Source: Streptomyces antibioticus (lineage in GTDB: Bacteria > Actinomycetota > Actinomycetes > Streptomycetales > Streptomycetaceae). Taken from it: a stretch of 64,000 bases of DNA. The number at the start of each line of letters is the position of its first letter. Positions within the stretch are counted from its first letter, which is position 1. The notes beneath the pieces were generated by a model. That model saw nothing but the letters and a program-made list of their open reading frames with translations. It ran no database searches and had not been told where the DNA came from. Positions 813 through 18,583 of the stretch are shown here, piece by piece. The stretch is taken from assembly GCF_001514065.1 (NCBI RefSeq), contig NZ_KQ948427.1:360474-424473 (forward strand), read 5' to 3'. The position numbers and the translations under genes were made by a program.

Positions 813-1763
813 TCAGGCGACCGGTGGGGTCCCGTGTGTGTGGAACGACTCGATGGTCTTCAGGCCCCAGGCCTGCCCCTTCTTCCGCTCCTCCTCGGTC
901 CAGGTGATCAGCGGCCAGTCGGGCGCGAGCACCAGCCGGGTGAGCGGGTTGCACAGCTCGATCCGGTTGCCGCCCGGCTCGTAGACGTAGAGGAAGAACG
1001 TCTGCTGGATGGCGTGCTTGTGCGGCCCCGTCTCGATGAACACCCCGGTGTCGATGGCGAGATCGGCCGCGCGCAGGATGTCCTCGCGGGTGTCGGTCGC
1101 GAAGGCGATGTGGTGCAGCCGCCCGGCGCTCCCGGTCCGGTCCGCGGTGTGGACGACGTCGTACGACTTGTTCGTGTACGTCAGCCAGCGCGCCGCGATC
1201 TTCCCGCTGTCCAGCCGGATCTGCTCCGTCGGCCGGGCGCCGAGGACGTTCTGCTCGAACTCGGCGTTGGCGAGGACGTCGGCGGCGAGGAAGTTGATGT
1301 GGTCGAGCCGCCGTACGCCCACACCCCGGTTCGGTTTGGCCTGCGGCTGGTTCTTCAGCGCGGGCCTGAGCTCCTCGGGCGCCCGGTAGTGCTCGCTCTC
1401 CCAGTAGAGGGCGTGCTCGTGGCCGTCCGGGTCGGTGGTGACGTAGAGCTTCCCGAGGCCGGGTTCGTCCTCGACCCAGGTGCCGGTGCCGCCGGACTCC
1501 TCGACCGCCTTGATACGGCGGTGAAGAGCCTCCTCGCTGGAGGTGCGCAGGGCGAGCCGGCCGAGGCCGGGCCGGCGGCGGGCCGTCAGGACCAGGCTGT
1601 GGTGCTCGTAGTCGTCGAAAGTCCGCAGGTAGACGGTGTCACCGTCCCGGCCGTTGACCGTCAGACCCAGGTAGTCGGTGAAGAAGGCGACGCTGGCGCC
1701 CAGGTCGGGGGTGAACAGCTGGGCGTGGCCGATGTGCGCGATGTCGCCGAGCGGCGGAGTCAT
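813..1763 (-). CDS. VOC-type (type I) extradiol ring-cleaving dioxygenase
   Basis: 316 aa, the usual length for two-module catechol 2,3-dioxygenases. Each half has the vicinal-oxygen-chelate fold: N-module start 'HIGHAQLFTPDL', C-module start 'LDHINF'. The metal-binding facial triad of the C-module is visible as His155 (LDHINF), His217 or His218 (LHHIAF) and Glu269 (NRIEL). His250 and Tyr260 sit where the family has its conserved active-site His/Tyr. It should insert O2 next to a catecholic diol. It is the last gene of the gntR-galB-galC-galD operon and overlaps galD by 4 bases (ATGA), so the physiological substrate is probably the aromatic whose product enters the GalD/GalB/GalC route (gallate or a close relative). 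The substrate itself is inference. The start has a GAGGAGGT Shine-Dalgarno. Confidence 0.88.
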   Translation of the reverse strand: MTPPLGDIAHIGHAQLFTPDLGASVAFFTDYLGLTVNGRDGDTVYLRTFDDYEHHSLVLTARRRPGLGRLALRTSSEEALHRRIKAVEESGGTGTWVEDEPGLGKLYVTTDPDGHEHALYWESEHYRAPEELRPALKNQPQAKPNRGVGVRRLDHINFLAADVLANAEFEQNVLGARPTEQIRLDSGKIAARWLTYTNKSYDVVHTADRTGSAGRLHHIAFATDTREDILRAADLAIDTGVFIETGPHKHAIQQTFFLYVYEPGGNRIELCNPLTRLVLAPDWPLITWTEEERKKGQAWGLKTIESFHTHGTPPVA

Positions 1764-2854
1764 CCGTGACCTCCTCGGGGTCGTGCGGCGGCCCGGGGGA
1801 AGACGGTGCCGTCGAAGATCTTGCGGGCCGTGCGCACCACGGCGGTGCGGCGGGCGGAGGGCAGACCGTCGGGGGTGGTGCCGAGGCTGCTCTCGATGTC
1901 CAGGAAGCCGGTGGGATGTTCTATGCGCATGCGGTCAACGCCGGGAGACAGCTCCGCGAGCTCCGCGCCCACCCCGCCGTCGATCCGCAGCCCGGCGGCG
2001 ACACCGGCCGCGCCGAGCACGCCGATCGAGGTGTGGCAGCGGACGGGGATGAAGGTGCGGGTGCAGATCGCGCCGCCCTCGCGGGGCGGGGCGAGCAGGG
2101 TGAGCTTGGGGACGGTCGTGTCCGACACATCACCGAGCCCCATCAGCCGGCCGGCCGCCAGGCGGATCTCGCGCAGCCGGTCGGCGAGCGCCAGGTCCTC
2201 CTCCAGGTCCTTGGGTGTCTCGTAGCCGGTGACCTTCAGTTCGGCGGCGGCGATCAGCACGGTCGGCATGCCGTTGTCCACGCAGGTGACCGGGACCCCG
2301 TCGATGACGTCCCGGGCGTTGCCGGTGGGCAGCAACTGCCCGGCTCCCGCCGGGAATTCGATGACGACCGCGGCGGCTGTGCCCGGCACTCCGGAGATCC
2401 GGGCCTCGCCCGTGCAGTCGACCCGGCCGCCCGGGGTGGGGAAGGTCGCGGTGGCGAGGTCGCCGCTGTTGACCATCCGGATGCGGACGGAGGTGAAGTC
2501 CTCCCCCGCCCGGACCAGACCCCGCTCGACGGCGAACGGTCCGACGCCGGCGAGGATGTTCCCGCAGTTCTGACGGTCACTCACCTCGGGTCGGTCGACG
2601 GCGACTTGGAGGAAGAGATAGTCGACGTCGGCGTCCGGGTCGGACGAGGGCGAGACCACGGCCACCTTGCTGGTGAGCGGGTGCGCCCCGCCGAGGCCGT
2701 CGATCTGCCGGTCGTCGGGGCTGCCCATGATGCGCAGGAGCAGCTCGTCGCGGGCGGCCGGGTCGGCGGGGAGGTCGTCGGCCAGGAAGTAGGCGCCCTT
2801 GGAGGTGCCGCCGCGCATCAGCAGACAGGGCACCTCCTCGGGCACGGAGCTCAC
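1760..2854 (-). CDS. PrpF-family 4-oxalomesaconate tautomerase (GalD-like)
   Basis: 364 aa, PrpF/diaminopimelate epimerase-fold isomerase. The N-terminus 'VPCLLMRGGTSKGAYF' and the later 'VDRPEVSDRQNCGNILAGVGPFA' region (the conserved N-C-G-N containing an active-site Cys) are hallmarks of PrpF proteins. Neighbouring galB and galC homologues make the GalD role (tautomerising the ring-cleavage product so that the hydratase can act) much more likely than the 2-methylaconitate isomerase role of PrpF itself, for which a 2-methylcitrate cycle context would be expected. The start is GTG at 2854, which overlaps the stop of galC by 4 bases (GTGA); reading further upstream would run into galC. Confidence 0.85.
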   Translation of the reverse strand: MSSVPEEVPCLLMRGGTSKGAYFLADDLPADPAARDELLLRIMGSPDDRQIDGLGGAHPLTSKVAVVSPSSDPDADVDYLFLQVAVDRPEVSDRQNCGNILAGVGPFAVERGLVRAGEDFTSVRIRMVNSGDLATATFPTPGGRVDCTGEARISGVPGTAAAVVIEFPAGAGQLLPTGNARDVIDGVPVTCVDNGMPTVLIAAAELKVTGYETPKDLEEDLALADRLREIRLAAGRLMGLGDVSDTTVPKLTLLAPPREGGAICTRTFIPVRCHTSIGVLGAAGVAAGLRIDGGVGAELAELSPGVDRMRIEHPTGFLDIESSLGTTPDGLPSARRTAVVRTARKIFDGTVFPRAAARPRGGHG

Positions 2855-3555
2855 GGCCGCCCTCCTTCGTACTCGGCGTACGTCCGGTACTCGACGCCGA
2901 GCCGCTGGAGGGCCTCCCGCAACCCATAGCGGTCCAGGCCGAGTTGGCCGTCGAGGAAGGCGGCCCGGGTGGCGGCCTCCTTGGCTTCGCGGGCCGCGGA
3001 CTTCTCGACCGTCTCGCGGACGCGCTCGCGCGGGACGACCACGACACCGTCGTCGTCGGCGAGGATCGCGTCGCCGGGGCGGATGACCTGGCCGTCGATC
3101 GCGATCGGTACGTTGACGGAGCCGCCGGTGGCCTTGACGGTGCCCTGCGAGGAGACGGCACGCGACCAGGCGGCGAAGCCCATGGCGCGCAGTTCCCGGG
3201 TGTCGCGGATGCCGGCGTTCATCACCACGCCCCTGACTCCGCGCTGCTGCAAGGCAGTTGCGAACAGCTCGCCGAAGAGGCCGTCCGTGCACGGGGAGGT
3301 GGTGGTGACGACCAGGAGGTCACCCTCCCCGCACTGCTCGACGGCGGCGTGGATCATGAGGTTGTCGCCGGGCCAGCTGAGCACGGTCACTGCCGTGCCC
3401 GCGACCCTTACGCCCTGCTGCACGGGCCGAATCCCCGGGCCCAGCAGGCCGGTTCGGCCCAACGCCTCGCTCACGGTCGCCACGCCATGGCCGGCCAGCG
3501 CGTCGACGTCCTTCAGCTCCGCCTTCGGCGGGTCGGTGACGATCACGCCGCTCAT
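2851..3555 (-). CDS. RraA-fold 4-carboxy-4-hydroxy-2-oxoadipate aldolase (GalC-like)
   Basis: 234 aa, RraA/class II pyruvate aldolase family. It splits 4-carboxy-4-hydroxy-2-oxoadipate to pyruvate and oxaloacetate with a divalent metal. 'GELFATALQQRGVRGVVMNA' followed by 'GIRDTREL' carries the conserved G-E loop and the Arg-Asp pair that in characterised aldolases bind substrate and metal. RNase-E-inhibitor RraA proteins are shorter (~160 aa); this one has the aldolase-type N-terminal and C-terminal extensions. It overlaps both neighbours by 4 bases (ATGA with galB, GTGA with galD), implying translational coupling. Function is inferred from family plus context and is well supported. Confidence 0.88.
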   Translation of the reverse strand: MSGVIVTDPPKAELKDVDALAGHGVATVSEALGRTGLLGPGIRPVQQGVRVAGTAVTVLSWPGDNLMIHAAVEQCGEGDLLVVTTTSPCTDGLFGELFATALQQRGVRGVVMNAGIRDTRELRAMGFAAWSRAVSSQGTVKATGGSVNVPIAIDGQVIRPGDAILADDDGVVVVPRERVRETVEKSAAREAKEAATRAAFLDGQLGLDRYGLREALQRLGVEYRTYAEYEGGRP

Positions 3556-4301
3556 GCCAGCTCCTTCGCGATCTGCGGGTAGGGACGCATGTACGCCTCG
3601 GCCATGGTCCTGTGGGCCAGGCCCAGGTTCGGCCCCGCGTTGCGCTTGAGCTGGACGCCGCGGCGGACGGCGAGGTCGGTGTAGTAGTCCCACAGGTGCC
3701 GCTGGGCGCCGAGGCACTCCATGGCCTTGCGCTTGGTGTCCCACACCTCGGTGATGTCGAGGAGGACCTCGGGCCTGAAGCCGCTCATCTCGGGCTGGTG
3801 CGGCTCGAAGAAGAACACCGGCGGGGCTCCGATGATCTCGCCGGGGCCGGGGTAGCCGATGGCCTGCGCGAGGACACGGGCTTCCAGGGCCATGCGGTGG
3901 GCGGCCGGGTGGTCGCCGTTGTACGGGTCCTCGGCGGGGTGGGTGAGCACGACGTCGGGCTGGGTGTCGCGGTAGACCTCCACGAGCCGGTCCGTCAGTT
4001 CGGGGGTGACCAGCAACGGGTAGTCGCCGGCGTCGAAGAAGCGGACCTCGGCGCCGAGGGTGGCGGCGGCGCGCTCGGCCTCGTCCCGGCGTATCGCCTT
4101 GATCTCCTCCAGCTTCTTCCCCTCGCGCCACGCCTTGGCGGACTCGCCGCGCTCTCCGAAGGTCAGACAGGCGATGGTGACCTTCTCGCCGCGCGCGGCC
4201 GCGAGGGCGATGGCCCCGCCGGCCCGCCACACGAAGTCGCCGGCGTGTGCGGTGACGACGAGGCTGGACCGTGGCGGGGCGGGCGCGTTGGCCTGGGTCA
4301 T
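3552..4301 (-). CDS. PIG-L-family 4-oxalomesaconate hydratase (GalB-like)
   Basis: 249 aa, zinc-dependent LmbE/PIG-L fold. Instead of the deacetylase-type AHPDDE motif it has 'TAHAGDFVWRAGGAIAL', the variant I associate with GalB hydratases of gallate degradation, and the downstream zinc-ligand segment is 'GDHPAAH'. 'CLTFGERGESAKAWR' is also typical. GalB adds water to 4-oxalomesaconate to give 4-carboxy-4-hydroxy-2-oxoadipate, the substrate of the next gene. I chose ATG at 4301 because AAGGGAG lies 6-8 nt upstream; an in-frame GTG at 4322 has no comparable RBS. Assignment is from motif memory and context, not a search. Confidence 0.87.
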   Translation of the reverse strand: MTQANAPAPPRSSLVVTAHAGDFVWRAGGAIALAAARGEKVTIACLTFGERGESAKAWREGKKLEEIKAIRRDEAERAAATLGAEVRFFDAGDYPLLVTPELTDRLVEVYRDTQPDVVLTHPAEDPYNGDHPAAHRMALEARVLAQAIGYPGPGEIIGAPPVFFFEPHQPEMSGFRPEVLLDITEVWDTKRKAMECLGAQRHLWDYYTDLAVRRGVQLKRNAGPNLGLAHRTMAEAYMRPYPQIAKELA

Positions 4302-4351
4302 TGCTGCATCTCCCTTGGTCACAGGTGGGCGCCCGCCCCGGTCCGTGGTGA

Positions 4352-5002
4352 TCAGTCGCGCAGCGCCTCGATCACGCCGGCGAGGTGGGCACGGACGGCT
4401 GTCTCGGCCGCCTGCGGGTCCCTGGCCCTGATCGCGTCGATCATCGCCAGGTGCTCGTTCAGGGAGTGCTGCGGACGTCCGGGCCGCAGCGCCAACCGGA
4501 AGCGGTGGCGCACCAGTTGGGCGTTGAGCCGCTCCAGCAGGTCCACGGCCGTCCGCTGGCCGGAGAACTCCCGGACCTTGGTGTGGAGCTCCTGGTTGAG
4601 CTCGGAGTAGGTCACCGGCTCGCCGTCGGCGACGGCCTTGCTCATCGCCGTGCCCAGCTCGGTCAGCTCGGCGAGCTGCTCGTCACTGGCGGCGACGGCG
4701 GCCTTCGCCGCGCAGAGCCCTTCGAGGACCATCCGGCACTCGGTGATGGCGACCGCTTCCTCCACGGTCACCACCCGCACCCGGGAACCCCGGTTGCGGA
4801 TCCGCTCGACGAGGCCCTGGGCCTCCAGATCGATGAGTGCGGCCCGGATGCTGGCCCGTGTCACACCGAACTGCTCGGCGAGTTCGTTCTCCACCAGCCG
4901 CTGCGCCGGTGCCATCTCACCGTGCAGGATCGCCTGCCGCAGCTGCGCGAGCGCATGCTGTTTGGCCTGCTCCCCGGTGCTCGGACGGGCTTCCTTCGGC
5001 AT
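4352..5002 (-). CDS. GntR-family (FCD/FadR subfamily) regulator of the gal-like operon
   Basis: About 216 aa. An N-terminal winged HTH ('LRQAILHGEMAPAQRLVE', 'ELAEQFGVTRASIRAAL') is followed by an all-helical FCD effector domain. Metal/ligand-coordinating positions typical of FCD proteins are seen around 'ELNQELHTKVREF' and 'NEHLAMIDAI'. It is first in the operon, with galB 50 bp downstream, so it probably represses its own operon until a pathway intermediate binds. The start is ATG 5002, preceded by GGGAGCGCAGCG. A longer in-frame start at 5077 exists, but it would lie upstream of the promoter and operator and is unlikely. Confidence 0.9.
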   Translation of the reverse strand: MPKEARPSTGEQAKQHALAQLRQAILHGEMAPAQRLVENELAEQFGVTRASIRAALIDLEAQGLVERIRNRGSRVRVVTVEEAVAITECRMVLEGLCAAKAAVAASDEQLAELTELGTAMSKAVADGEPVTYSELNQELHTKVREFSGQRTAVDLLERLNAQLVRHRFRLALRPGRPQHSLNEHLAMIDAIRARDPQAAETAVRAHLAGVIEALRD

Positions 5003-5031
5003 CGCTGCGCTCCCTGAGTGAGTGCCTGTCG

Positions 5032-5065
5032 AACGTAGATCTGGCCGAACAGGATTGTCAACAAT
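5032..5065 (-). promoter_or_regulatory. Promoter and palindromic operator of the gntR-gal operon
   Basis: On the minus strand a perfect -35 box TTGACA (5056-5061) is followed after 18 nt by TACGTT (5032-5037) as the likely -10. The -35 is embedded in the 12-bp palindrome ATTGT-N2-ACAAT (5054-5065), which matches the TTGT-N2-ACAA style of FCD-GntR operators. Binding there would block RNA polymerase, consistent with autorepression. Boxes are visible by eye; the regulation is inferred. Confidence 0.6.
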
Positions 5066-5114: not shown

Positions 5115-5969
5115 TCACCCCTCTCGGTACAGCGCCGTGAGCAGCTCCATCACGGCCTGTGTCGCCGGGTGCGGATCGTCCCGCCACCAGGCGAGCCGCA
5201 CGGCGATCGGCTCCCCGTCACGCACCGGCCGGTAGACGACCCCGGGCCGCGGGTACTGGTTGGCCGTCGACTCGGCCGTCGTCCCCACGCACCGGCCGGT
5301 GGCGATCACGGTCAGCCAGTCGTCGACGTCGTGCGTCTCCTCGGTGGCCGGGCGGGCCTCCGGCGGCCACAGGTCGGGCGTGGTGGTGCCGGTACGGCGG
5401 TCCACCAGCAGTGTCCGCCCCGCGAGGTCGGCCATCCGCACCGACCGGCGCCGTGCCAGCGGATCGTCGGCGGCCATCGCGCACAGCCGTCGCTCCAGTC
5501 CGACGATGACCGACTCGAACCGCCGGTCGTCCAACTCCCGGCGTACGACGGCCAGATCGCACGCACCCTCAGCGAGCCCGGCGGTCGTCGAGTTGACGCG
5601 CACCAGGTGCAGGTCGGTCTCCGGACGCTCCCGGCCCCAGCGGCGCTGGAACGGCAGCGTGTGCCGCCCCAGCGCCGCCCAGGCGTAGCCGACGCGCAGA
5701 TGGGCGTGGCCCGACGTGGCGTCCCGGACCAGGTCGTCGACCTCGGCGAGCACCCGGCGGGCGTGCGCGACGACCCGCACCCCGGTACCGGTCGGGGTCA
5801 CCTCGCGCGAGGTGCGCCGCAACAGCCGTACCCCCAGGGAGCGTTCGAGCGAGGCCAGGGTGCGGGAGACGGCCGCCTGGGACACCCCGAGGGCGAGGGC
5901 GGCGTCGGTGAAGGTGCCCTCGTCGACGATGGCGACGAGACAGCGCAACTGCCGAAGCTCCACATCCAT
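5115..5969 (-). CDS. LysR-family transcriptional regulator
   Basis: 284 aa. N-terminal winged HTH (residues 1-60) with 'LRQLRCLVAIVDEGTFTDAALALGVSQAAVSRTLASLE' character, then a periplasmic-binding-protein-like co-inducer domain. It is divergent from the EamA exporter gene, 68 bp apart, with a dyad in between, so the exporter is the obvious target. It also sits between the gal-like and hydroxyquinol gene sets and could sense an aromatic acid, but nothing in the sequence fixes the ligand. ATG start at the conserved 'MDVELRQL' N-terminus typical of the family. Confidence 0.92.
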   Translation of the reverse strand: MDVELRQLRCLVAIVDEGTFTDAALALGVSQAAVSRTLASLERSLGVRLLRRTSREVTPTGTGVRVVAHARRVLAEVDDLVRDATSGHAHLRVGYAWAALGRHTLPFQRRWGRERPETDLHLVRVNSTTAGLAEGACDLAVVRRELDDRRFESVIVGLERRLCAMAADDPLARRRSVRMADLAGRTLLVDRRTGTTTPDLWPPEARPATEETHDVDDWLTVIATGRCVGTTAESTANQYPRPGVVYRPVRDGEPIAVRLAWWRDDPHPATQAVMELLTALYREG

Positions 5970-6037: not shown

Positions 6038-6943
6038 ATGCAAGGAGCCCCCGCACGCCCCGCCGCCCCTCCCCTGCCCGCCACCGGCGCCCGGGAGCGC
6101 TCCGGTGTCTCCGTCGCCGGGGTGGCCACGATGGCCGGCAGCGGACTGTCCAACCAGGTCGGCGCCGCGATCGGTTCGCTCGCCTTCTCCGTCATCGGCC
6201 CCGTGGGAGTCGTGGCGGTGCGTCAGTACGTGGCCGCCGCCGTGCTGTTGACCGTCGGCCGGCCGAAGCTGAGGTCGTTCACCTGGCGCCAGTGGTGGCC
6301 GGTGCTGCTGCTGGCCGTGGTGTTCGGGACGATGAACCTGTCCCTCTACACGGCCGTCGACCGCGTCGGGCTGGGGCTGGCGGTGACCCTGGAGTTCCTC
6401 GGCCCGCTCGCCATCGCCCTGGCCGCCACCCGGCGCCGGGTGGACGCGTGCTGTGCGCTGCTGGCGACCGCGGGGGTCGTGACGCTGATGCGCCCGCAGC
6501 CCTCCACCGACTACCTCGGCATGGGGCTCGGGCTGCTGGCGGCCGCCTGCTGGGCGGCGTACATCCTCCTCAACCGCACCGTCGGCAGCCGGCTGCCCGG
6601 AGCGCAGGGCTCCGCGGCGGCGGCCATGGTGTCGGCGCTGATGTTCCTGCCGGTCGGGATCGTGGTCGCCGTACGCCACCCGCCGACCCTCGCGGCGGCC
6701 GGCTGCGCGGTGGCCGCCGGGGTGCTGTCCTCGGCGGTGCCCTACCTCGCCGACCTGTTCACGCTGCGGCGGGTGCCGGCCCCGGTGTTCGGCCTGTTCA
6801 TGAGCGTCAATCCGGTCCTGGCGGCCGTGGTCGGGTGGGTGGTGCTCGGGCAGGGGCTGGGCGGACCGGAGTGGGCGGGGATCGCGGCCGTCGTCGGGGC
6901 GAACGCGCTCGGCATCCTCACGGCGCGGCCTCGGCCGACCTGA
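6038..6943 (+). CDS. EamA/DMT-superfamily exporter (RhtA-like)
   Basis: 301 aa integral membrane protein with about ten hydrophobic segments from residue ~28 to 292, forming two EamA repeats. Motifs such as 'GPVGVVAVRQ', 'TLEFLGPLAIAL' and the closing 'NALGILTAR' are like the RhtA threonine/homoserine exporters and relatives. It should export a small metabolite through the cytoplasmic membrane; the substrate is not deducible. It is controlled by the divergent LysR gene. The first ~25 residues are Pro/Ala-rich and probably cytosolic. Confidence 0.85.
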   Translation: MQGAPARPAAPPLPATGARERSGVSVAGVATMAGSGLSNQVGAAIGSLAFSVIGPVGVVAVRQYVAAAVLLTVGRPKLRSFTWRQWWPVLLLAVVFGTMNLSLYTAVDRVGLGLAVTLEFLGPLAIALAATRRRVDACCALLATAGVVTLMRPQPSTDYLGMGLGLLAAACWAAYILLNRTVGSRLPGAQGSAAAAMVSALMFLPVGIVVAVRHPPTLAAAGCAVAAGVLSSAVPYLADLFTLRRVPAPVFGLFMSVNPVLAAVVGWVVLGQGLGGPEWAGIAAVVGANALGILTARPRPT

Positions 6944-6945
6944 CC

Positions 6946-6987
6946 GGCCCCTGCCGGAGGAGCACCCAGCCCCTCGGAACAGGGGCC
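6946..6987. terminator. Possible bidirectional terminator hairpin
   Basis: GGCCCCTG (6946-6953) pairs with CAGGGGCC (6980-6987) across a 26-nt loop in the short space between the convergent exporter and maleylacetate reductase genes. There is no clear U-tract, so its efficiency is uncertain. Confidence 0.35.
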
Positions 6988-6996
6988 CTTCATGCC

Positions 6997-8076
6997 CTAC
7001 GTCCGCCCCGGCGCCTCTCCCTCGAACGCCGCCCGCAGCAGCGCCAGCACACCGTCCGCCGTGACCTCCCTCGGGTTGGGGTACGCCTGACCCACCACCT
7101 GCTCGGCCGCCACCCCCAAGTCGCCCTCTTTCAGGCCCAGTTCCGCGAGTGAGCGCGGCGCGCCCAGGTCTCCGGCCAGTCGCCACAGGGCCGTTGGGGC
7201 GTCGGACGAGGTGTCCAGGGCGCGGGCGACGGCGGCCGCCGCCTCGGGGGCCGCGGGGGCGTTGTACGCCAGGGCGTACGGCAGGACCACGGTGTGGGTC
7301 TCGGCGTGGGGCAGGCCGAAGGTGCCGCCGAGGACATGGCAGAGCTTGTGGTGCAGGCCCATGGTGGTGGCGCCCGGGCAGGAGCCGCAGAGCCAGGCAC
7401 CGTAGAGGGCGCGGCTACGGGCGTCCAAGTTCCGAGGGTCTGCGGCCAGTTGGCGCAGCGCACCCGCCATGGCCCGTACGCCCTCCTCGGCGGTCAGCGC
7501 GATCAGGGGTGAGGTGTCGGGGGCGTACAGGGCCTCGACGGCGTGGGCGATGGCGTTGACACCGCTGGTGACGGAGAGCGGGACGGGGAGGGAGAGGGTG
7601 AGCTCGGGGTCGTAGACGATGCTGCGGGGCAGGACGGACGGGTCGCGGCCGGTGCGTTTGGCGCCGTGTTCGGTAAGGCCCCACACCGCAGTCGCCTCCG
7701 AGCCGGAGTACGTGGAGGGGACGGCGATCAGCGGCAGGCCGGTGCGCAGCGCGATGGCCTTGCCGAGGCCGATCGACGAACCGCCGCCGACCGCCACACA
7801 GCCGTCCGCGTCCGCTGCCCGGGCCACCTCCACCGCGCGGTCGGCGACTTCGACGGGGACATGCATCCTGGCCCCGGTGTGCAGGCCCGCGCAGGCCGCG
7901 CCCAGGGAGTCGGCGACCGCCTGCGCGGTGTCGGCTCCGTGCGTGCCCGAGACCACCAACAGCCTTCGCAGGCCGAGCCGTTGGGCCTCCCCCGCGGTCG
8001 CCGTCGTCGCGGCACCGGGGCGGAAGACGACCCGCATGGGCGGCGTCTCGTGGGTAAAGGCGGCGAGGGGGTTCAC
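6997..8076 (-). CDS. Maleylacetate reductase (iron-containing ADH family)
   Basis: 359 aa, group III metal-dependent alcohol dehydrogenase fold. The dinucleotide-binding 'GGGSSIGLGKAIAL' and the 'PSTYSGSEAT' segment are typical of maleylacetate reductases, as is the metal-site region 'LHHKLCHVLGGTFGLPHAETH'. It would reduce maleylacetate to 3-oxoadipate with NAD(P)H. It overlaps the upstream ring-cleaving dioxygenase by 4 bases (GTGA), which fixes the GTG start at 8076 and couples their translation. The pair makes a complete lower hydroxyquinol path to 3-oxoadipate. The thiolase at 35-36 kb could handle the next thiolytic step, but it is far away. Confidence 0.92.
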   Translation of the reverse strand: MNPLAAFTHETPPMRVVFRPGAATTATAGEAQRLGLRRLLVVSGTHGADTAQAVADSLGAACAGLHTGARMHVPVEVADRAVEVARAADADGCVAVGGGSSIGLGKAIALRTGLPLIAVPSTYSGSEATAVWGLTEHGAKRTGRDPSVLPRSIVYDPELTLSLPVPLSVTSGVNAIAHAVEALYAPDTSPLIALTAEEGVRAMAGALRQLAADPRNLDARSRALYGAWLCGSCPGATTMGLHHKLCHVLGGTFGLPHAETHTVVLPYALAYNAPAAPEAAAAVARALDTSSDAPTALWRLAGDLGAPRSLAELGLKEGDLGVAAEQVVGQAYPNPREVTADGVLALLRAAFEGEAPGRT

Positions 8077-8924
8077 GCGCGCTCCAGTACGAGGTCGATG
8101 TGCGCGTGCCGGAAGGGGTTCGGCACCCCCAACTCCCCGGCCAGGGACGGGTCGTCGGTCGGGGTGAAGTCGCGGACGAGGCTCTGCTTGACGGCGAACA
8201 CCGCGTCCGAGTCCAGGTACTTGTCGCCCGCCACGAAGATGTGCGTGGTGACCGGGGCGTGGCCGGGGGCCGAGGCGATGAAGTGGATGTGGGCGGGGCG
8301 GTAGGGGTGGCGGCCGGTGGCCCGGAGCAGGTCTCCGACCGGGCCGTCCGTGGGGATCGGGTAGGAGCTCGGGACGCAGGTGCGGAAGCGGAAGCGGCCC
8401 TCGGGGTCGGTGGTGAACAGCCCGCGGCCGTTGCCGGCCGGCTGTACGTCCGGCCGCTGGACGTCGTAGAAGCCGTTGCCGTCGGCCTGCCACACGTCCA
8501 CGGTCGCGCCCGGCAGCGGGGTGCCGTCCGCGGACAGCACGCGGCCGCTCACCACACAGGGCTCACCGTCGCCCACGAGGTCGATGTCGGCACCGAGTTC
8601 ACGGACGGGGGACTCGGTCATGTGGAAGGGGCCGAGGACGGTCGACTCGGTGGCGTCGGGCGTGCTGTGGCCGTGGAGGGTCTCAAGCAGCATCGACAGG
8701 CCGAGGACGTCGGACAGGAGGATGAACTCCTGCCGGGTGTCCGTGCAGGTCTGTCCGGTCGCCGTGAGGAAGCGGATCGCCGCCTCCCACTCCCCCTGCG
8801 TCAGCCGCGTCTCGCGGGCGAAGTCGTGCAGATGGCGGACGAGAGCGGTGAGCAGGTCACGCAGACGCGGGTCCGCGGTGTCGCGCAGGCTGTCGATCGC
8901 CTCGTCGGTGACGTCGGTGGTCAT
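8073..8924 (-). CDS. Intradiol dioxygenase, probably hydroxyquinol 1,2-dioxygenase
   Basis: 283 aa, with an N-terminal helical dimerisation domain (~1-95) and a beta-sandwich catalytic domain. Non-haem Fe(III) ligands are visible: Tyr in 'GNGFYDVQ', Tyr in 'CVPSSYPIP' and the two His of 'RPAHIHF'. Both catechol and hydroxyquinol enzymes share these; pairing with maleylacetate reductase argues for 1,2,4-trihydroxybenzene as substrate, because maleylacetate is its cleavage product. No hydroxylase that would make hydroxyquinol is in the window. The ATG at 8924 is preceded by AAGGGAGC, and this RBS-start unit is repeated upstream (see repeat at 8915). Confidence 0.9.
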   Translation of the reverse strand: MTTDVTDEAIDSLRDTADPRLRDLLTALVRHLHDFARETRLTQGEWEAAIRFLTATGQTCTDTRQEFILLSDVLGLSMLLETLHGHSTPDATESTVLGPFHMTESPVRELGADIDLVGDGEPCVVSGRVLSADGTPLPGATVDVWQADGNGFYDVQRPDVQPAGNGRGLFTTDPEGRFRFRTCVPSSYPIPTDGPVGDLLRATGRHPYRPAHIHFIASAPGHAPVTTHIFVAGDKYLDSDAVFAVKQSLVRDFTPTDDPSLAGELGVPNPFRHAHIDLVLERA

Positions 8925-10062: not shown

Positions 10063-11088
10063 TCACTCCCGGCTGGGCATGTTGTACGGGGTCACGACCT
10101 GGATCGCGGACGGCAGTGTCGGCCCCGCCGGGGGCAGCGCGCCGTGCGCCCGCATGACGAGGTGGCAGGCCTCGCGCAGGTCCTGGCGCAGGTCGTGGTG
10201 GAGGACCGCGGAGAGGCGGTGCTCGCTCAGCAGGCGGGTGTTGTCGTGGTCGAGGTCGTGCGCGATGAACACCACGCACTCCCGGCCGAGGTCCTCGAAG
10301 GCACGCAGGGTCGCGATGTTGCCGCCGCCGATGGAGTAGACGGCACGGATGTCCGGGTCGCGGGCGAGGGCGGCGCGGACGAGGTCGTACTGGGTGGCGT
10401 CCAGGCCCTGGCCCTCGGCGATCTCGACCAGGGTGCGGCCCGGGTGGTGGGCCCGCATGGCGCCGCGGAAGCCCATCTCACGCTCCTCCTCGTTGCGGAA
10501 GAAGCCGCTGCTGAGGCTGGTGAGGACATTGCCGGGCCGGTCCCCCAGCCACTGGCCCATGAGGTACGCGGCCGTCGCCCCCGCCGCCCGGTTGTCGATG
10601 CCGACGTAGCCGAGGCGGGCGCTGGCGGGCAGGTCGGTGACCAGGGTGACCACGGGGATTTCGGCGGCGACCAGGCGGCCGACGGCCGCGGTGACCTCGG
10701 GGACGTCCGGGGCCTTGAGGATCACGCCCTGGGAGCCGCGCCGGGCTATCCGGTCCAGGGTGCGGACCTGCTCCTCGACCGGACCGGTCTCCCGGAAGTG
10801 GAAGCGGGAGCGCACGACCGCCGGATGCAGGGCGGGCAGTTCCGCCTCCAGCGCGGCCCGGACGGCGGTGCTGAACCGCTCGGGCGTCTGCATCACTATG
10901 TCGATCATGAAGGTGCGGCCCACCAGCCGGACCTGGGTGCGCTGCCGGTCGAGGTCGGCGATGGCACGCTGGACCTCGCGGGCGGTGCTCTCCCGGACGC
11001 CGCCCCTGCCGTTCAGGACCCGGTCCACGGTGGCCTCGCTCAAACCCGCCTGACGTGCGATTTCCCGGATCGGGAAGGGGTGGCCCAT
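10063..11088 (-). CDS. LacI-family transcriptional regulator
   Basis: 341 aa. N-terminal HTH with hinge: 'IREIARQAGLSEATVDRVLNGR' then 'VRESTAREVQRAIADL'. The rest is a periplasmic sugar-binding-like domain ('GVILKAPDVPEVTAAVGRL', 'YSIGGGNIATLRAFEDLG'). It is divergent from the PhyH-SDR-dehydrogenase genes 133 bp away and is their probable regulator, responding to a sugar or cyclitol. AAGGAGCC precedes the ATG. The sequence 'VILKAPDV' rather than 'VIISP' is typical of the branch resembling inositol/ribose binding proteins, but I cannot name the effector. Confidence 0.92.
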   Translation of the reverse strand: MGHPFPIREIARQAGLSEATVDRVLNGRGGVRESTAREVQRAIADLDRQRTQVRLVGRTFMIDIVMQTPERFSTAVRAALEAELPALHPAVVRSRFHFRETGPVEEQVRTLDRIARRGSQGVILKAPDVPEVTAAVGRLVAAEIPVVTLVTDLPASARLGYVGIDNRAAGATAAYLMGQWLGDRPGNVLTSLSSGFFRNEEEREMGFRGAMRAHHPGRTLVEIAEGQGLDATQYDLVRAALARDPDIRAVYSIGGGNIATLRAFEDLGRECVVFIAHDLDHDNTRLLSEHRLSAVLHHDLRQDLREACHLVMRAHGALPPAGPTLPSAIQVVTPYNMPSRE

Positions 11089-11159
11089 GGGCAGGCTCCT
11101 TGAGGGGTTTTTGATGGCTCCGTGCCGGTTGTTCGACGGGTTTGTACTGACAAGAATGA

Positions 11160-11208
11160 CAGCGCTGCGTCGCCCCTGTCACCCGAGCGCTGCGTCGCCC
11201 CTGTCACC
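11160..11208. repeat. Two direct 23-bp repeats upstream of the PhyH oxygenase gene
   Basis: The 23-mer beginning AGCGCTGCGTCG occurs exactly at 11161-11183 and 11186-11208, a 25-bp period, ending 12 bp before the start codon. Each copy starts with the palindrome AGCGCT (CAGCGCTG at 11160-11167). It overlaps the place where the RNA leader of this gene would be, so it could be tandem regulator sites or a recent duplication. Confidence 0.7.
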
Positions 11209-11220
11209 GAGAGGACGCCG

Positions 11221-12387
11221 ATGTCCTTCATCGCCGTACACCGCCGGGCCTGGCTGTCCGAGCAGGACTGCGACCTCGCCGCCCTGCGTCCGCTCGTCGA
11301 GCGGACCACCGACCCGGCCGACTACCCGTACGCCGACGCCGTGGAGCGGAACGTCCTGATCTACGACAGTGAGCGCGTCGGCGCGGTCAAGGAACGCCGT
11401 GAGGTCCAGGAGGAGCTGGTGCGGGCCCTCACCGACGGGCCCGGAGTCGTGGTGTTCCGGGGCGCGTTCCCCGATGCCGCGGTCGTGGACCGGGCCAGCG
11501 CGGTGTTCGAGGCGCTGATCCGTGAGCAGGACGCGGCGGGGGCCACCGCCGGGGACCACTTCGCGAAGCCCGGCGCCAACGAGCGGGTGTGGAACGCGCT
11601 GGAGAAGGCAGCCCTGTACGACCCGACGGCGTTCGCCGACTACTACGCCAACCCCGTCCTCGCCCTGGTCTCCGAGGCCTGGCTGGGCCCTGGCTACCAG
11701 GTCACCTCCCAGGTCAACGTCGTCAACCCGGGCGGCCTCGCGCAGACCGCGCACCGCGACTACCACCTCGGTTTCCTCTCCGACGAGGTCGCGGCCGCCT
11801 ACCCGGCCCATGTGCACCGCCTTTCCCCCGTGCTCACGCTCCAGGGCGCGGTCGCCCACTGCGACATGCCGGTGGAGTCCGGACCGACGCTCTACCTGCC
11901 ATACTCCCAGACCTTCGAGCCGGGTTACCTCGCCTGGCGGCGGCCGGAGTTCCAGGCGTACTTCAAGGAGCACCACGTCCAGCTGCCGCTGGCCAAGGGC
12001 GACGCCGTGTTCTTCAATCCGGCGCTGTTCCACGCGGCCGGCACCAACCGCACCACCGATGTCCGGCGGGTCGCCAATCTGCTCCAGGTGTCCTCGGCGT
12101 TCGGGCGGGCCATGGAGACCGTGGATCGGGAGACGATGGCGAACGCGGTCTATCCCGTGCTGCTGCGCCGCGCCACGGAGGGCGCGAGCGAGGAATGGCT
12201 GGCCAACGTGATCGCCGCCAGCGCCGAGGGCTACCCCTTCCCCACCAACCTCGACAGCGATCCGCCGGTGGACGGTCTGGCCCCGCCCTCCCAGGCGGAT
12301 CTCGTCCGGCGGGCGCTGCGCGAGCGGTGGACGCCGCGGACGCTGCGGGACGGGCTGCGGGCGGCCGCCGAGCGGCGCGAGAGCTGA
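11221..12387 (+). CDS. Phytanoyl-CoA dioxygenase (PhyH) family Fe(II)/2-oxoglutarate oxygenase
   Basis: 388 aa. The iron triad of the double-stranded beta-helix is visible: 'TAHRDYHLGF' gives His-x-Asp and 'FFNPALFHAAGTNRT' gives the distal His, with the 2-oxoglutarate-binding Arg shortly after ('RRVANLLQ'). Such enzymes hydroxylate small molecules or sugars using 2-oxoglutarate and O2. It is first gene of a run with an SDR and two Gfo/Idh/MocA dehydrogenases, suggesting oxidation of a sugar, cyclitol or sugar-derived compound. ATG 11221 (GAGAGGA RBS) begins right after the direct repeats; upstream in-frame extension would read through them. Confidence 0.87.
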   Translation: MSFIAVHRRAWLSEQDCDLAALRPLVERTTDPADYPYADAVERNVLIYDSERVGAVKERREVQEELVRALTDGPGVVVFRGAFPDAAVVDRASAVFEALIREQDAAGATAGDHFAKPGANERVWNALEKAALYDPTAFADYYANPVLALVSEAWLGPGYQVTSQVNVVNPGGLAQTAHRDYHLGFLSDEVAAAYPAHVHRLSPVLTLQGAVAHCDMPVESGPTLYLPYSQTFEPGYLAWRRPEFQAYFKEHHVQLPLAKGDAVFFNPALFHAAGTNRTTDVRRVANLLQVSSAFGRAMETVDRETMANAVYPVLLRRATEGASEEWLANVIAASAEGYPFPTNLDSDPPVDGLAPPSQADLVRRALRERWTPRTLRDGLRAAAERRES

Positions 12388-12402
12388 AAGGGCGTACGGC
12401 AC

Positions 12403-13179
12403 ATGGGACTTCTCGACGAGAAGATCGTCCTCGTCAACGGCGGGAGCCAGGGCGTGGGCGCCGCGATCGCCCGGGCCGCGGTGCGCGAGGGCGCGGTCGT
12501 GGCCGTGTCCGGGCGGCGCCCCGAGCCGGGCGAGGCGCTGGTGGCCGAGCTGACGGCGGCGGGCGGCAAGGCGATGTTCGTACGGGCCGATCTCGCGGAC
12601 GCCGAGCAGGCGAAGGCGTCGGTGGCGTCCGTGGTGGCGGCGTACGGCCGGATCGACTGCCTGGTGAACTCGGCGGGGCTCACCTCCCGGGGCACGCTGC
12701 TCGACACCACGCCCGAGCTGTTCGACCAGCACATCGCGATCAACCTGAAGGCGCCGTTCTTCGCCATGCAGGCCGCGGTCGCCGACATGGTGGGGCGGGG
12801 CGCGCCCGGCACGGTCGTCAACATCATCACGTCCTCGGCGCACGGCGGGCAGCCGTTCCTCGCCCCGTACGTCGCCGCGAAGGCCGGGCTGATCGGCCTG
12901 ACCCGCAACGCCGCGCACGCGCACCGCTGGGACCGGGTGCGGATCAACGGCCTGAACATCGGCTGGACGGCGACCGAGGGCGAGGACGCCACCCAGAAGG
13001 CCTTCCACGGCGCCGCCGACGACTGGCGCGAGGAGGCCGCGGCGAAGCTGCCGATGGGCAAGCTGGGCCAGCCCGACGAGATCGCCGACTTCGTCGTCCT
13101 GCTGCTGTCCGACCGGTCCGGCGTGGTCACCGGATCGGTGATCGACTGGGACCAGAACGTCCTCGGCGGACTCGACTAG
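12403..13179 (+). CDS. SDR-family NAD(P)-dependent oxidoreductase
   Basis: 258 aa classical short-chain dehydrogenase. The cofactor motif 'VNGGSQGVGAAIA' (a G-x3-G-x-G variant), 'NSAG' (NNAG-like), catalytic Ser in 'IITSSAHGG' and Tyr-x3-Lys in 'YVAAKAG' are all present. The substrate is probably a sugar or polyol alcohol. It is 15 bp after the PhyH gene and is likely co-transcribed with it under the LacI regulator. Confidence 0.92.
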   Translation: MGLLDEKIVLVNGGSQGVGAAIARAAVREGAVVAVSGRRPEPGEALVAELTAAGGKAMFVRADLADAEQAKASVASVVAAYGRIDCLVNSAGLTSRGTLLDTTPELFDQHIAINLKAPFFAMQAAVADMVGRGAPGTVVNIITSSAHGGQPFLAPYVAAKAGLIGLTRNAAHAHRWDRVRINGLNIGWTATEGEDATQKAFHGAADDWREEAAAKLPMGKLGQPDEIADFVVLLLSDRSGVVTGSVIDWDQNVLGGLD

Positions 13180-13223
13180 CACTACCGCTCTTCCGTAAGA
13201 ACCCTCAAGGAGCTGCAATCCCC

Positions 13224-14228
13224 ATGCGCATCGGAATCCTCGGCCTCGGCCGTATCGGCGCCTTCCACGCCGAGACCCTCTCCGGACTCGACGCGGTCGA
13301 GTCGCTCGTCCTCACCGACCCGTTCGCGGACGCCGCCAAGTCCGCCGCGGAGAAGTTCGGCGGCGAGGTCGTGGACTCGCCGGAGGCCCTGCTGGCGGCC
13401 GGCGTGGACGGCATCGTCGTCGCGGCGGCGACGGACGCCCACCCGGCGCTGATCCTGGCCGGTGTCGAGGCCGGCATCCCCGTCTTCTGCGAGAAGCCGG
13501 TCGCCAAGCACATGAGCGAGGGCGTCGAGGTCCTCAAGGCGATCCAGGGCACGACCGTGCCGATCCAGATCGGCTACAACCGGCGTTTCGACGCCGGGTT
13601 CGTGGCCGCGCGGGCCGCCGTGCGGAGTGGCGAGCTCGGCAAGCTGCACACCGTGCGCTCGACGACCCTCGACCCGGCGCCGCCGCCCGCCGCGTACGTC
13701 GCCGCCTCCGGGGGCATCTTCCGGGACTGCTCGGTGCACGACTTCGACATCATCCGCTGGGTGACCGGCCGTGAGGTCGTCGAGGTGTACGCCGTGGGCG
13801 GCAACCGTGGCGCCGACTACATCAAGGCGGCCGGCGACGCCGACACCACCGGCGCGATCCTCACCCTGGACGACGGCACGATCGCGGTGATCTCCAACTC
13901 CCGGCACAACAAGCGGGGTTACGACGTCCGCATGGAGCTGCACGGCTTCGAGGACTCCATCGCGGTCGGCCTGGAGGACAAGCTGCCGCTGCGCTCGGTC
14001 GAGCCCGGGGTGACGTTCCCGGCCGGAACGCCGCACGACTTCTTCATGGACCGCTTCACCGCCGCCTACCGCGCCGAACTCACCGCGTTCACCGAGGTCG
14101 TGGCCGGCACCCGGCCGTCCCCGTGCACGGTGGAGGACGCCCTGGAGGCCGGCTGGATCGCCGAGGCCTGCACACTGTCCCTGCACGAGCACCGTCCCGT
14201 CACCATCGAGGAGGTACGGCAGGCATGA
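13224..14228 (+). CDS. Gfo/Idh/MocA dehydrogenase, inositol 2-dehydrogenase-like
   Basis: 334 aa. Rossmann start 'MRIGILGLGRIGAFHAETL', the family 'EKPVAKH' motif with the catalytic Lys, and 'DCSVHDFDIIRWV' containing the Asp/His catalytic pair. The sequence closely follows IolG-type myo-inositol 2-dehydrogenases ('IGYNRRFDAGF', 'GGNRGADYI'), so oxidation of an inositol is the best guess. AAGGAG lies upstream of the ATG at 13224. The stop overlaps the next dehydrogenase gene by 4 bases (ATGA). Confidence 0.88.
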   Translation: MRIGILGLGRIGAFHAETLSGLDAVESLVLTDPFADAAKSAAEKFGGEVVDSPEALLAAGVDGIVVAAATDAHPALILAGVEAGIPVFCEKPVAKHMSEGVEVLKAIQGTTVPIQIGYNRRFDAGFVAARAAVRSGELGKLHTVRSTTLDPAPPPAAYVAASGGIFRDCSVHDFDIIRWVTGREVVEVYAVGGNRGADYIKAAGDADTTGAILTLDDGTIAVISNSRHNKRGYDVRMELHGFEDSIAVGLEDKLPLRSVEPGVTFPAGTPHDFFMDRFTAAYRAELTAFTEVVAGTRPSPCTVEDALEAGWIAEACTLSLHEHRPVTIEEVRQA

Positions 14229-15253
14229 GCGAGCCGGGCCGGGAACCACTGCGCATCGGAGTCCTGGGAGCAGCGCGGATCACCGAGAGCTCCCTCATCG
14301 CCCCGGCCCGGACGACCGGCCACCGTGTCGTCGCGGTGGCCGCCCGCGACCGGTCCCGCGCCGAGGAGTTCGCGCGCGAGCACGGCGTGGAGCGGGTCGT
14401 GGACTCCTACGCCGACCTGATCGCGGACCCCGAGGTCGAGGTCGTCTACAACCCGCTCGCCAACGGCCTGCACGGACCGTGGAACCTGGCCGCTCTCGCG
14501 GCCGGCAAGCACGTCCTCTCCGAGAAGCCGTCGGCGAGCAACGCCGGGGAGGCCGCCGAGGTGCGGGAGGCGGCGGCGAAGTCCGGGACGGTCTTCATGG
14601 AGGCCTTCCACTACCTCTTCCACCCGGTCACCCGGCGGCTGCACGAGCTCCTGGAAAGCGGCGAACTCGGCGACCTCCAGCGGGTGGAGACGATGGTCGC
14701 CATCGCCGCGCCCCCGGACACCGACCCGCGCTGGTCGCTGCCGCTGGCCGGCGGCGCGATGATGGACCTGGGCTGCTACAGCCTGCACGCGGTGCGCATG
14801 CTGGCCCCGTTCGGCGGCGGCGCGCCCCGGCTCGTCTCGGCGCGCGGCGGTGAGCGGGCGGGGGCGCCCGGCGTGGACGAATGGCTGGACGTGGAGCTGG
14901 AGTTCCCGGGCGGGGCCACGGCGTCCGCGCGCTGCCACATGGCGTACGACGGTCTCGACATGAGCTGCCGGATCATCGGCAGCCGAGGTGAGGCGACCGC
15001 GACGAACTTCGTGCTGCCGCACCTCGACGACCAAGTCGTGGTGCGCACCGACGCGGGTGAGCGCACGGAGCGGCTCGGCACCAGGTCGTCGTACACCTAC
15101 CAGTTGGACGCGTTCGCGGCGCGGGTGCGCGAGGGGACGCCGGTGCCGCTGGACGCGGACGACGCGGTGGCGACGATGGAGCTGATCGACGCGAGCTACC
15201 GCGCGGCGGGCTTCGAGCCGCGACCCCGGTCGGTGGTCCCGCGCCTGTCATGA
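14225..15253 (+). CDS. Gfo/Idh/MocA-family oxidoreductase
   Basis: 342 aa. Rossmann start 'LRIGVLGAARITESSLI', 'LSEKPSASN' (EKP motif) and 'GGAMMDLGCYSLHAVRML' in place of the IolG-like D-x2-H segment. That is the pattern of glucose-fructose oxidoreductase/dimeric dihydrodiol dehydrogenase-like members rather than inositol dehydrogenases. Substrate unknown, probably a sugar or trans-diol. Translationally coupled to its neighbours on both sides by 4-base overlaps. Confidence 0.9.
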   Translation: MSEPGREPLRIGVLGAARITESSLIAPARTTGHRVVAVAARDRSRAEEFAREHGVERVVDSYADLIADPEVEVVYNPLANGLHGPWNLAALAAGKHVLSEKPSASNAGEAAEVREAAAKSGTVFMEAFHYLFHPVTRRLHELLESGELGDLQRVETMVAIAAPPDTDPRWSLPLAGGAMMDLGCYSLHAVRMLAPFGGGAPRLVSARGGERAGAPGVDEWLDVELEFPGGATASARCHMAYDGLDMSCRIIGSRGEATATNFVLPHLDDQVVVRTDAGERTERLGTRSSYTYQLDAFAARVREGTPVPLDADDAVATMELIDASYRAAGFEPRPRSVVPRLS

Positions 15254-15720
15254 TCGACGGCATGGCCGTGCACATCGTTCCCGCCCGGGTCACCGACATC
15301 CAGCAGGTCCTCGCCGATCACTCCCGCTACTGGGGCGACCGGGACCTCAGGTCCCTCCATCTCCTGGCCTTGGTCCAGGAGTTCGGGTCGACCTGTCTGG
15401 TGGCCCGGGCCGAGGACGGCATCCACGGCTATCTCGTCGGGTTCGTCACGCCCGACGCCACCGGGTACGTCCATCTGATCGCGACCCGCGACGACGCGCG
15501 CGGCACCGGGCTCGGGCGGCGGCTGTACGACGCCTTCACCGAGGCCGCGCGGCAGCAGGGCGCGGTCCGGCTGAAGGCCATCACCTCCGTGACCAACACG
15601 GGCTCGGTCGCCTTCCACCGCGGTATGGGCTTCGACGCCCGCGTCGAGGAGGACTACAACGGTCCCGGGCAGCCCATGGTGGTCTTCACGCGGGCGCTCC
15701 CGGAACCGGGTCAGGTGTAG
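15250..15720 (+). CDS. GNAT-family N-acetyltransferase
   Basis: 156 aa, a single GNAT domain. Acetyl-CoA binding motif A is at 'RDDARGTGLGRRLYDAF' and the C-terminal 'SVAFHRGMGF' is motif B. The acceptor substrate cannot be told. The start overlaps the preceding dehydrogenase stop (ATGA), so it belongs to the same transcript, perhaps as a detoxifying or tailoring activity. Confidence 0.88.
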   Translation: MIDGMAVHIVPARVTDIQQVLADHSRYWGDRDLRSLHLLALVQEFGSTCLVARAEDGIHGYLVGFVTPDATGYVHLIATRDDARGTGLGRRLYDAFTEAARQQGAVRLKAITSVTNTGSVAFHRGMGFDARVEEDYNGPGQPMVVFTRALPEPGQV

Positions 15721-15732
15721 CGAGAACCCCGG

Positions 15733-16752
15733 TCACGCGTAGAGCTCCGGTCGCTCCACCAGCTCGACCTCCACCCGCCCGCCGTCCGTCAGCGCCCGCA
15801 CCCCGGCCTCGCAGACGGCGGCGGCCGCGTACCCGTCCCACACGCTCGGCCCGGTGACCTCGCCCCGGCGGGTGGCGTCGGCCCAGGCCTGGAGTTCGCG
15901 GTCGTAAGCTTCGGCGAAGCGGTCGATGAAGTCCTGGGCGATGGTGCCGCCCCAACGCCCCGCCATGTTGGTGACCATGGCGTGGCCGTCGCCGATGCGG
16001 GCGGTGCCGCGTTCGCAGACCACCTCGGCCTGCACCTGGTAGCCGTAGCCGCAGTTGACGAAGATCTCCACGTCGGAGATCGCGCCGCCGTCCGTCTCGA
16101 ACACCACGAACTGCGGGTCCTGCAAACCGTCCGGCGCGTTCACCGAGGGTCTCGGCCGCAGCACGGTGACGGCGGTGATCTCCTGGCCGAGCAGCCAGCG
16201 GGTCACGTCCGTCTCGTGCGCCACCGAGTCGCTGATGAGCATCTCGCTGGTGAAGAAGGGCGGGCTGGCCGCGTTGCGATGCCGGTTGTGCAGCAGCAGC
16301 GGACGGCCCAACTGGCCCGTGTTCAGCAGCGCCTTGAGGCGTACGTACTCGGAGTCGTAGCGCCGCATGAAGCCGACCTGGACGCGGCGGCGGCCCAGTC
16401 GCCGTTCGGCCTCCAGGACGCGCAGGGCCGAGGCCGCGTCCGGGGTGAGCGGCTTCTCGCACAGCACCGGGAGGTCGCGGTCGAGGGCGGCCAGCAGCGC
16501 GGCCTCGTGCGCGGGGCCGGAGGAGGCGATCAGTACGGCGTCGACGTCGTCCGCGGCCATCGCCGTGACCGGGTCGGTGTAGGCGGTGCAGCCGTCGACG
16601 CGGGCCGCCACGGCCTTGGCGCGCTCCGCGTCGATGTCGACGACGGCGCTGACCCGAGCCCCGCTGACGACCCCCTGGATGCGCCGCACATGGTCGGCGC
16701 CCATCTTTCCCGTTCCGATGACGGCGACTCGGAGAGTGTCGCTCCGCGTCAT
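15733..16752 (-). CDS. Gfo/Idh/MocA dehydrogenase, IolG-like
   Basis: 339 aa. N-terminal '[19 protein letters not shown]', 'LCEKPLTPD' (EKP, catalytic Lys) and '[15 protein letters not shown]' with the Asp/His pair expected of inositol and related polyol dehydrogenases. It ends the operon SBP-permease-ATPase-TIM barrel-IolG, so the likely role is NAD-dependent oxidation of an imported inositol or inosose-forming step. It starts 13 bp after the TIM-barrel gene. Confidence 0.88.
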
Positions 16753-16765
16753 GTCGTCGCCCCCT

Positions 16766-18579: not shown

Positions 18580-18583
18580 CACG

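Follow-up and report, generated by a model that had tools for sequence, protein, structure and literature searches.

Which enzyme opens the aromatic ring in an operon that encodes the later steps of gallate breakdown and no LigB-type gallate dioxygenase? The question is raised by a five-gene locus of Streptomyces antibioticus, at positions 813-5065 on the minus strand of the 64,000-nucleotide stretch analysed here (the window; RefSeq assembly GCF_001514065.1, contig NZ_KQ948427.1, positions 360,474 to 424,473), in a genome of 10.1 Mb and 29 contigs. Gallate is a building block of tannins and is released both from them and from syringyl lignin. All five genes (gntR, galB, galC, galD and voc) are present and co-directional. 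An initial annotation made from the DNA letters (the sequence-only reading) had described them as joined by 4-base overlaps, which is the case at three of the four junctions (voc/galD/galC/galB), whereas gntR and galB are spaced by 50 bp. The products that it listed, an FCD-domain GntR regulator, homologues of GalB, GalC and GalD, and a VOC dioxygenase, were each recovered by profile or PDB matches. Comparison of these sequences makes it highly probable that the locus is a self-contained gallate operon, in which the VOC protein opens gallate as a non-homologous replacement of the LigB-type enzymes GalA/DesB, with Tyr201 in its active site, and GntR acts as repressor. The change of the catalytic His to Tyr, the operator, the broad occurrence of the gene set and the lack of a transporter gene present in relatives go beyond the sequence-only reading.

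The predicted functions of the three post-cleavage enzymes are assigned through strong homology to solved enzymes of the pathway. GalD (1760-2854, minus strand, GTG start), a putative 4-oxalomesaconate (OMA) tautomerase of the PrpF fold, scores 493.6 bits against the curated OMA tautomerase model NF033377 (cut-off 440), and its best PDB match is oxalomesaconate isomerase 6p3j (384 bits). By itself this protein is weak evidence, because YbhH of E. coli follows closely (340 bits) and E. coli, examined as a control, also holds a member of the curated family. GalC (2851-3555, minus strand), an RraA-like putative 4-carboxy-4-hydroxy-2-oxoadipate aldolase, passes model NF006731 (314.8 bits, cut-off 179) and fails TIGR02798 (278.2 bits, cut-off 304.5); its best PDB match, the aldolase 3noj, reaches 251 bits, and the second 61. 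GalB (3552-4301, minus strand), a putative 4-oxalomesaconate hydratase of the PIG-L fold, exceeds the cut-off of no curated NCBIfam model and matches the solved hydratase 5cgz with 274 bits, the second match having 41. Its motif H-A-G-D-F-V-W-R conforms to the pattern HxxDFVWR, which is found in all 89 GalB matches examined.

The chemistry of the pathway points to gallate. As outlined in sections of PMC9942251, gallate is converted to OMA by one ring cleavage, and protocatechuate additionally requires a 4-carboxy-2-hydroxymuconate semialdehyde (CHMS) dehydrogenase and a 2-pyrone-4,6-dicarboxylate (PDC) hydrolase. Neither enzyme is encoded among the five operon genes, in agreement with the earlier remark that LigC/LigI-type genes are missing from the operon; no genome-wide search was made for CHMS dehydrogenase. 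According to our atom mapping, cleavage of gallate between C4 and C5 directly yields the enol form of OMA, the substrate of GalD and GalB. In the proposed mechanism gallate would coordinate the Fe(II) of the VOC enzyme via the hydroxyls at C3 and C4, and the enzyme would use O2 to split the C4-C5 bond and give OMA. GalD would then set the OMA tautomer, GalB would hydrate OMA to 4-carboxy-4-hydroxy-2-oxoadipate, and GalC would convert the latter to pyruvate and oxaloacetate.

The idea that the VOC protein stands in for a LigB-type dioxygenase gains support from the rest of the genome, where a search for a co-regulated LigB-type gallate dioxygenase gave none. Two LigB-fold genes are present, both outside the operon and both under the curated cut-offs: one resembles 2,3-dihydroxyphenylpropionate dioxygenase (111.5 bits, compared with 412 for gallate dioxygenase), and the other DOPA dioxygenase (179 bits, cut-off 233).

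A check of how often the gene set co-occurs, proposed with the sequence-only reading, revealed near-complete pairing of VOC and GalD in a sample of 199 Streptomyces genomes (VOC at E <1e-30; GalD above the curated cut-off). The VOC gene was detected in 49 genomes and GalD in 54, and in the 45 genomes with both they invariably lie on one contig, at most 306 bp apart. When three VOC proteins of 40-45% identity are left out (the rest have at least 68%), GalD accompanies VOC in 45 of 46 genomes, the exception being G182, in which the VOC reading frame is truncated and no gal genes were found in its vicinity. Conversely, no such VOC was found in nine of the 54 GalD genomes. Six VOC-less GalD genomes (L160, L163 and L165-L168) share another conserved cluster, consisting of GntR, GalD, LigJ-like, GalC, LigI-like and MFS genes, with no ring-cleaving gene among those sought; LigI-like and LigJ-like are our own labels for two Amidohydro_2 proteins, to which no curated model gave such names. 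In a sample of 396 genomes from the phylum, GalD exceeds the cut-off in nine and VOC is adjacent in eight, the ninth having LigB, LigI-like and LigJ-like genes instead. This sample is only partly independent, because seven of the eight are genus-mates and six of them also belong to the genus sample.

The association extends beyond the phylum. Among the best 80 of at least 578 proteobacterial relatives of an Agrobacterium-led profile (a named-genome scan), GalB, GalC and GalD are all encoded within 8 kb of VOC in 57, LigB in two and tannase in one. VOC relatives were also found by tblastn in 76 plasmid records, and in five of the eight plasmid regions examined (L064 and L068-L071) the VOC gene is accompanied by all three gal genes. 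In Pantoea piersonii it adjoins galD-galC-galB, a LysR regulator and an aromatic-acid symporter.

The phylogenetic tree was built from 55 of 127 VOC proteins, hand-picked to span the genomic contexts, and three PDB chains; some of its branches are long and the deep placements are unsure. Fourteen window-type actinobacterial proteins, all with GalD, form a single clade (100/98), and 27 proteobacterial proteins form a separate one (100/100), in which 17 have GalD, two a partial set and eight none. Together with the Thermus, Roseomonas and Methylobacterium enzymes both belong to a clade of 44 rows (98/95). At least 11 changes are needed to explain the GalD label on the tree, compared with a mean of 19.5 after shuffling, so GalD-linked proteins are clustered, yet do not constitute one clade.

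The same survey bears on a second interpretation, that the VOC protein is a protocatechuate 4,5-dioxygenase and that OMA is reached via dehydrogenase and PDC hydrolase genes elsewhere. A related VOC in Thermus occurs with 4-hydroxybenzoate 3-monooxygenase, DUF6282 and aldehyde dehydrogenase genes, and among the best 80 proteobacterial loci LigI-like genes are near four and LigJ-like genes near three. Eight VOC loci contain GalB, GalC and DUF6282 in place of the GalD set. Set against this, GalD and DUF6282 never occur together in the 126 loci (90 with GalD, eight with DUF6282), and the six Streptomyces GalD loci that do carry LigI-like and LigJ-like genes are those without VOC. The window genome offers no good PDC hydrolase match: a query that we labelled PDC-hydrolase-like, whose own best NCBIfam match is 4-sulfomuconolactone hydrolase below the cut-off, gave at best a partial and weak match (E 3.3e-6 over 163 of 292 residues). 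It does possess a protocatechuate 3,4-dioxygenase beta subunit above the cut-off. Protocatechuate 4,5-cleavage was rejected on the absence of a good PDC hydrolase match, the presence of this subunit and the mutual exclusion of GalD and DUF6282, and we regard it as very unlikely. A protocatechuate pathway in the Thermus-type clusters, in which a short-chain dehydrogenase would act as the CHMS dehydrogenase, was also considered; the protein in question is, according to Pfam, DUF1932 (6-phosphogluconate-dehydrogenase-like). Since it is present in gallate-type clusters too, we claim no substrate for the Thermus-type branch.

Several alternative layouts were seen in this survey. Eight loci (L025-L030, L032 and L067) share a sister arrangement of VOC, GalB, GalC, DUF6282 and a DUF1932 dehydrogenase-like protein with no GalD; DUF6282 would be a candidate for the missing step from another catechol to OMA. 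The DUF1932 gene, which suggests no obvious reaction, is near VOC in 30 of the best 80 proteobacterial loci and also in one plasmid region (L071, 1402-2289). In three proteobacterial loci (L130, L135 and L142) the genes after VOC encode a flavin monooxygenase that resembles 4-hydroxybenzoate 3-monooxygenase and an intradiol dioxygenase, an arrangement that may provide a route in from a different aromatic acid. In a further group, of Streptomyces operons (L043, L046, L053-L055 and L061), VOC and GalD remain and GalB, or GalB and GalC, are missing, which would reflect either decay or a substitute hydratase encoded elsewhere.

Regulation of the gallate operon can be approached through the GntR protein (4352-5002, minus strand), in which PF07729 and PF00392 are both above cut-off. 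The palindrome ATTGTTGACAAT (5054-5065, minus strand), the core of a longer palindrome, is its predicted operator and lies 52-63 bp ahead of gntR. The open frame of gntR extends to 5077, and because the conserved operator lies upstream of 5002, the latter is probably the start. Among 28 loci in which gntR was matched, 25 show the operator with no more than one mismatch, always at -57 to -64; in the shuffle control the best of 50 shuffles per upstream stretch had two to five mismatches. By this measure it is absent upstream of gntR in L039, L064 and L162. In L039 an exact copy precedes galB instead, and L162, where the gntR match is partial, has an exact copy within the locus. In the whole window genome there is one exact site, at this operon, so that the predicted regulon is the operon itself; allowing one mismatch adds one further place, or two sites per strand in all, compared with four when the pattern is reversed as a control. 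Several DUF6282 loci and two loci with the VOC-less cluster (L160 and L165) contain exact copies too. The string TTGACA, read by eye inside the operator, may be a -35 element. The FCD-GntR protein is probably an autoregulated repressor, which would bind the palindrome and hold the operon off until gallate or OMA appears.

A link to tannin breakdown is suggested by the tannase/feruloyl esterase family of Pfam, found in 30 of the 199 Streptomyces genomes, 17 of them VOC-positive. The family is present in 17 of 49 VOC-positive and 13 of 150 VOC-negative genomes (Fisher p 4e-5, in a test that ignores phylogeny and genome size and for a family that includes feruloyl esterases too), and 32 of the 169 tannase-negative genomes are VOC-positive. 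A tannase gene lies beside the operon in three genus-mates (loci L056, L169 and L170, the last two chosen for retrieval on account of it); the three genomes in which it is at most 5 kb from VOC are G065, G068 and G011. In G065 and G011 the tannase gene and gntR diverge, and the operator (one mismatch in G065) occupies the stretch between the two. On plasmid pAt of A. tumefaciens 186, a strain from walnut, tannase follows galD, and it stands beside the operon in a Rhodobacterales metagenome-assembled genome (L103). The tannase of the window genome is on contig 12, away from the operon.

The VOC protein (813-1763, minus strand), the proposed gallate 4,5-dioxygenase, shows the two-domain fold of type I extradiol dioxygenases across its full length. 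Its 2-His-1-Glu iron site is kept among relatives (H155 in 126, H218 and E269 in all of 127). The catalytic His200 of homoprotocatechuate 2,3-dioxygenase (HPCD; His194 in BphC) is replaced by Tyr201, and this position is Tyr in 119 and His in eight of the 127 relatives. Arg243 and Arg293 of HPCD, which we take to be carboxylate-binding, correspond to Thr245 and Gly296, and the residues aligned with His250, Tyr259, Asn157 and Trp193 are kept. HPCD (1f1x), AphC (7q2a; 3lm4 with the same aligned residues) and catechol 2,3-dioxygenase (1mpy) share the fold and the His/His/Glu site with the window enzyme, and differ from it in these three substitutions and in its linkage to gal genes. We propose that Tyr201 would serve where type I extradiol enzymes employ the catalytic His.

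According to another interpretation, the VOC protein is an ordinary catechol or alkylcatechol 2,3-dioxygenase whose presence in the operon serves a second substrate. The protein exceeds the cut-off of TIGR03211, 'catechol 2,3-dioxygenase', by one bit (321.3 versus 320.2), and fold comparison within the searched PDB copy places it nearest to AphC with 4-ethylcatechol and to further catechol 2,3-dioxygenases. The closest solved sequence is 9wgj (360 bits), titled 'Catechol 1,2-dioxygenase', which is not among the fold-search matches listed. It resembles the window enzyme in that HPCD His200 and Arg293 correspond to Tyr and Gly in both, and differs in its placement, just outside the 44-row clade that contains the GalD-linked enzymes. 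As a physiological role, catechol 2,3-cleavage was rejected, and we judge it highly improbable: linkage of VOC to GalD is nearly constant in the genus sample, and linkage to GalB, GalC and GalD is common in the distant proteobacterial clade, no semialdehyde hydrolase or dehydrogenase was recognised among the five operon genes, and the AphC-like 3lm4 keeps the catalytic His where the window enzyme has Tyr. The VOC fold is also host to other activities, and loss of the catalytic His would suit a protein that does not cleave rings, such as an isomerase or lyase acting after an unrecognised enzyme has opened gallate; this explanation seems exceedingly improbable to us.

The catechol-like scores and the nearest solved sequence weigh against gallate cleavage by VOC, and because the catalytic His is replaced, activity of the enzyme is not guaranteed. 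On the same side stand the LigI-like, LigJ-like and DUF6282 loci, the limits of the tannase test and several further findings. None of the genes sought was near VOC in 14 of the best 80 proteobacterial loci, several of which are on short contigs, and among 18 other actinobacterial VOC loci GalD is present in three, GalB, GalC and DUF6282 in seven, and none of these genes in eight. GalB, or GalB and GalC, are missing in five of 20 Streptomyces loci. Three VOC-less genus-mates retain GalD and gntR (fragmented in two), two of them have GalC as well, and neither VOC nor LigB was matched in the vicinity. Finally, in a relative whose VOC is 95% identical (L044) an MFS transporter gene (6048-7292) lies directly downstream of VOC; in the window just 34 bp (779-812) separate the VOC and TetR genes, with no MFS gene there, and the best match to the L044 transporter elsewhere in the genome has 45% identity over part of the protein, leaving uptake in the window strain unaccounted for.

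The operon is flanked by a convergent TetR gene downstream (188-778) and a LysR gene upstream (5115-5969). A second aromatic ring-cleavage module adjoins it at 6997-8924, where an intradiol dioxygenase and an Fe-alcohol-dehydrogenase-type gene resemble hydroxyquinol 1,2-dioxygenase and maleylacetate reductase. The region 10063-20000, with a LacI-type regulator, a PhyH dioxygenase, a short-chain dehydrogenase, two Gfo/Idh/MocA oxidoreductases and ABC transporter genes, is perhaps a polyol (inositol-like) catabolic cluster.

A broader proposal, to which we give about an even chance, is that a widespread type I subfamily with Tyr for His and without the HPCD arginines acquired by evolution the ability to split trihydroxybenzoate between two carbons bearing hydroxyls, Tyr doing the proton transfer, and is the main gallate dioxygenase of Streptomyces and many Alphaproteobacteria, hidden under the name of catechol 2,3-dioxygenase. 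Annotation that seeks only LigB-type GalA/DesB would deny gallate opening to the genomes found here of the Streptomyces type, Rhizobium, Agrobacterium, Rhodobacteraceae and Pantoea, and would credit them with meta-cleavage of catechol. A second gallate dioxygenase, unrelated to the first, would exemplify non-homologous replacement cleanly at a central step of catabolism and supply lignin research with a new dioxygenase. It would also allow the role of the catalytic His in extradiol dioxygenases to be tested by a natural comparison, with Tyr as an alternative acid-base solution within a textbook enzyme class.

The protocatechuate 2,3-dioxygenase PraA of Paenibacillus JJ-1b reportedly acts on a carboxylated catechol and is perhaps a type I enzyme; likened here by description, it is said to cleave the ring at the 2,3 position, with decarboxylation as the next step, and so to differ from the OMA route. 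Searches of the open-access literature brought up no description of a gallate dioxygenase of type I (VOC). In the portions of AromaDeg that cover these families, gallate dioxygenases belong to the LigB superfamily, and the substrates given for the VOC superfamily include neither gallate nor protocatechuate. The gallate pathway has been characterised in Rhodococcus opacus PD630 (PMC9942251), the relevant sections of which do not state the dioxygenase used. The pathway is already known; what appears to be new is the family of its first enzyme, the Tyr of that enzyme and the extent of the replacement. As described in those sections, the gal cluster of Pseudomonas putida KT2440 and the desB/lig genes of Sphingobium SYK-6 have the GalB, GalC and GalD steps in the same reaction order as proposed here (PMC9942251). 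The window operon differs from them in having no porin gene, and its regulator is of the FCD-GntR type, whereas that of P. putida is the LysR protein GalR (PMC9942251). The ring itself is opened in both by LigB-fold (type II) enzymes, in contrast to the VOC (type I) enzyme of the Streptomyces operon.

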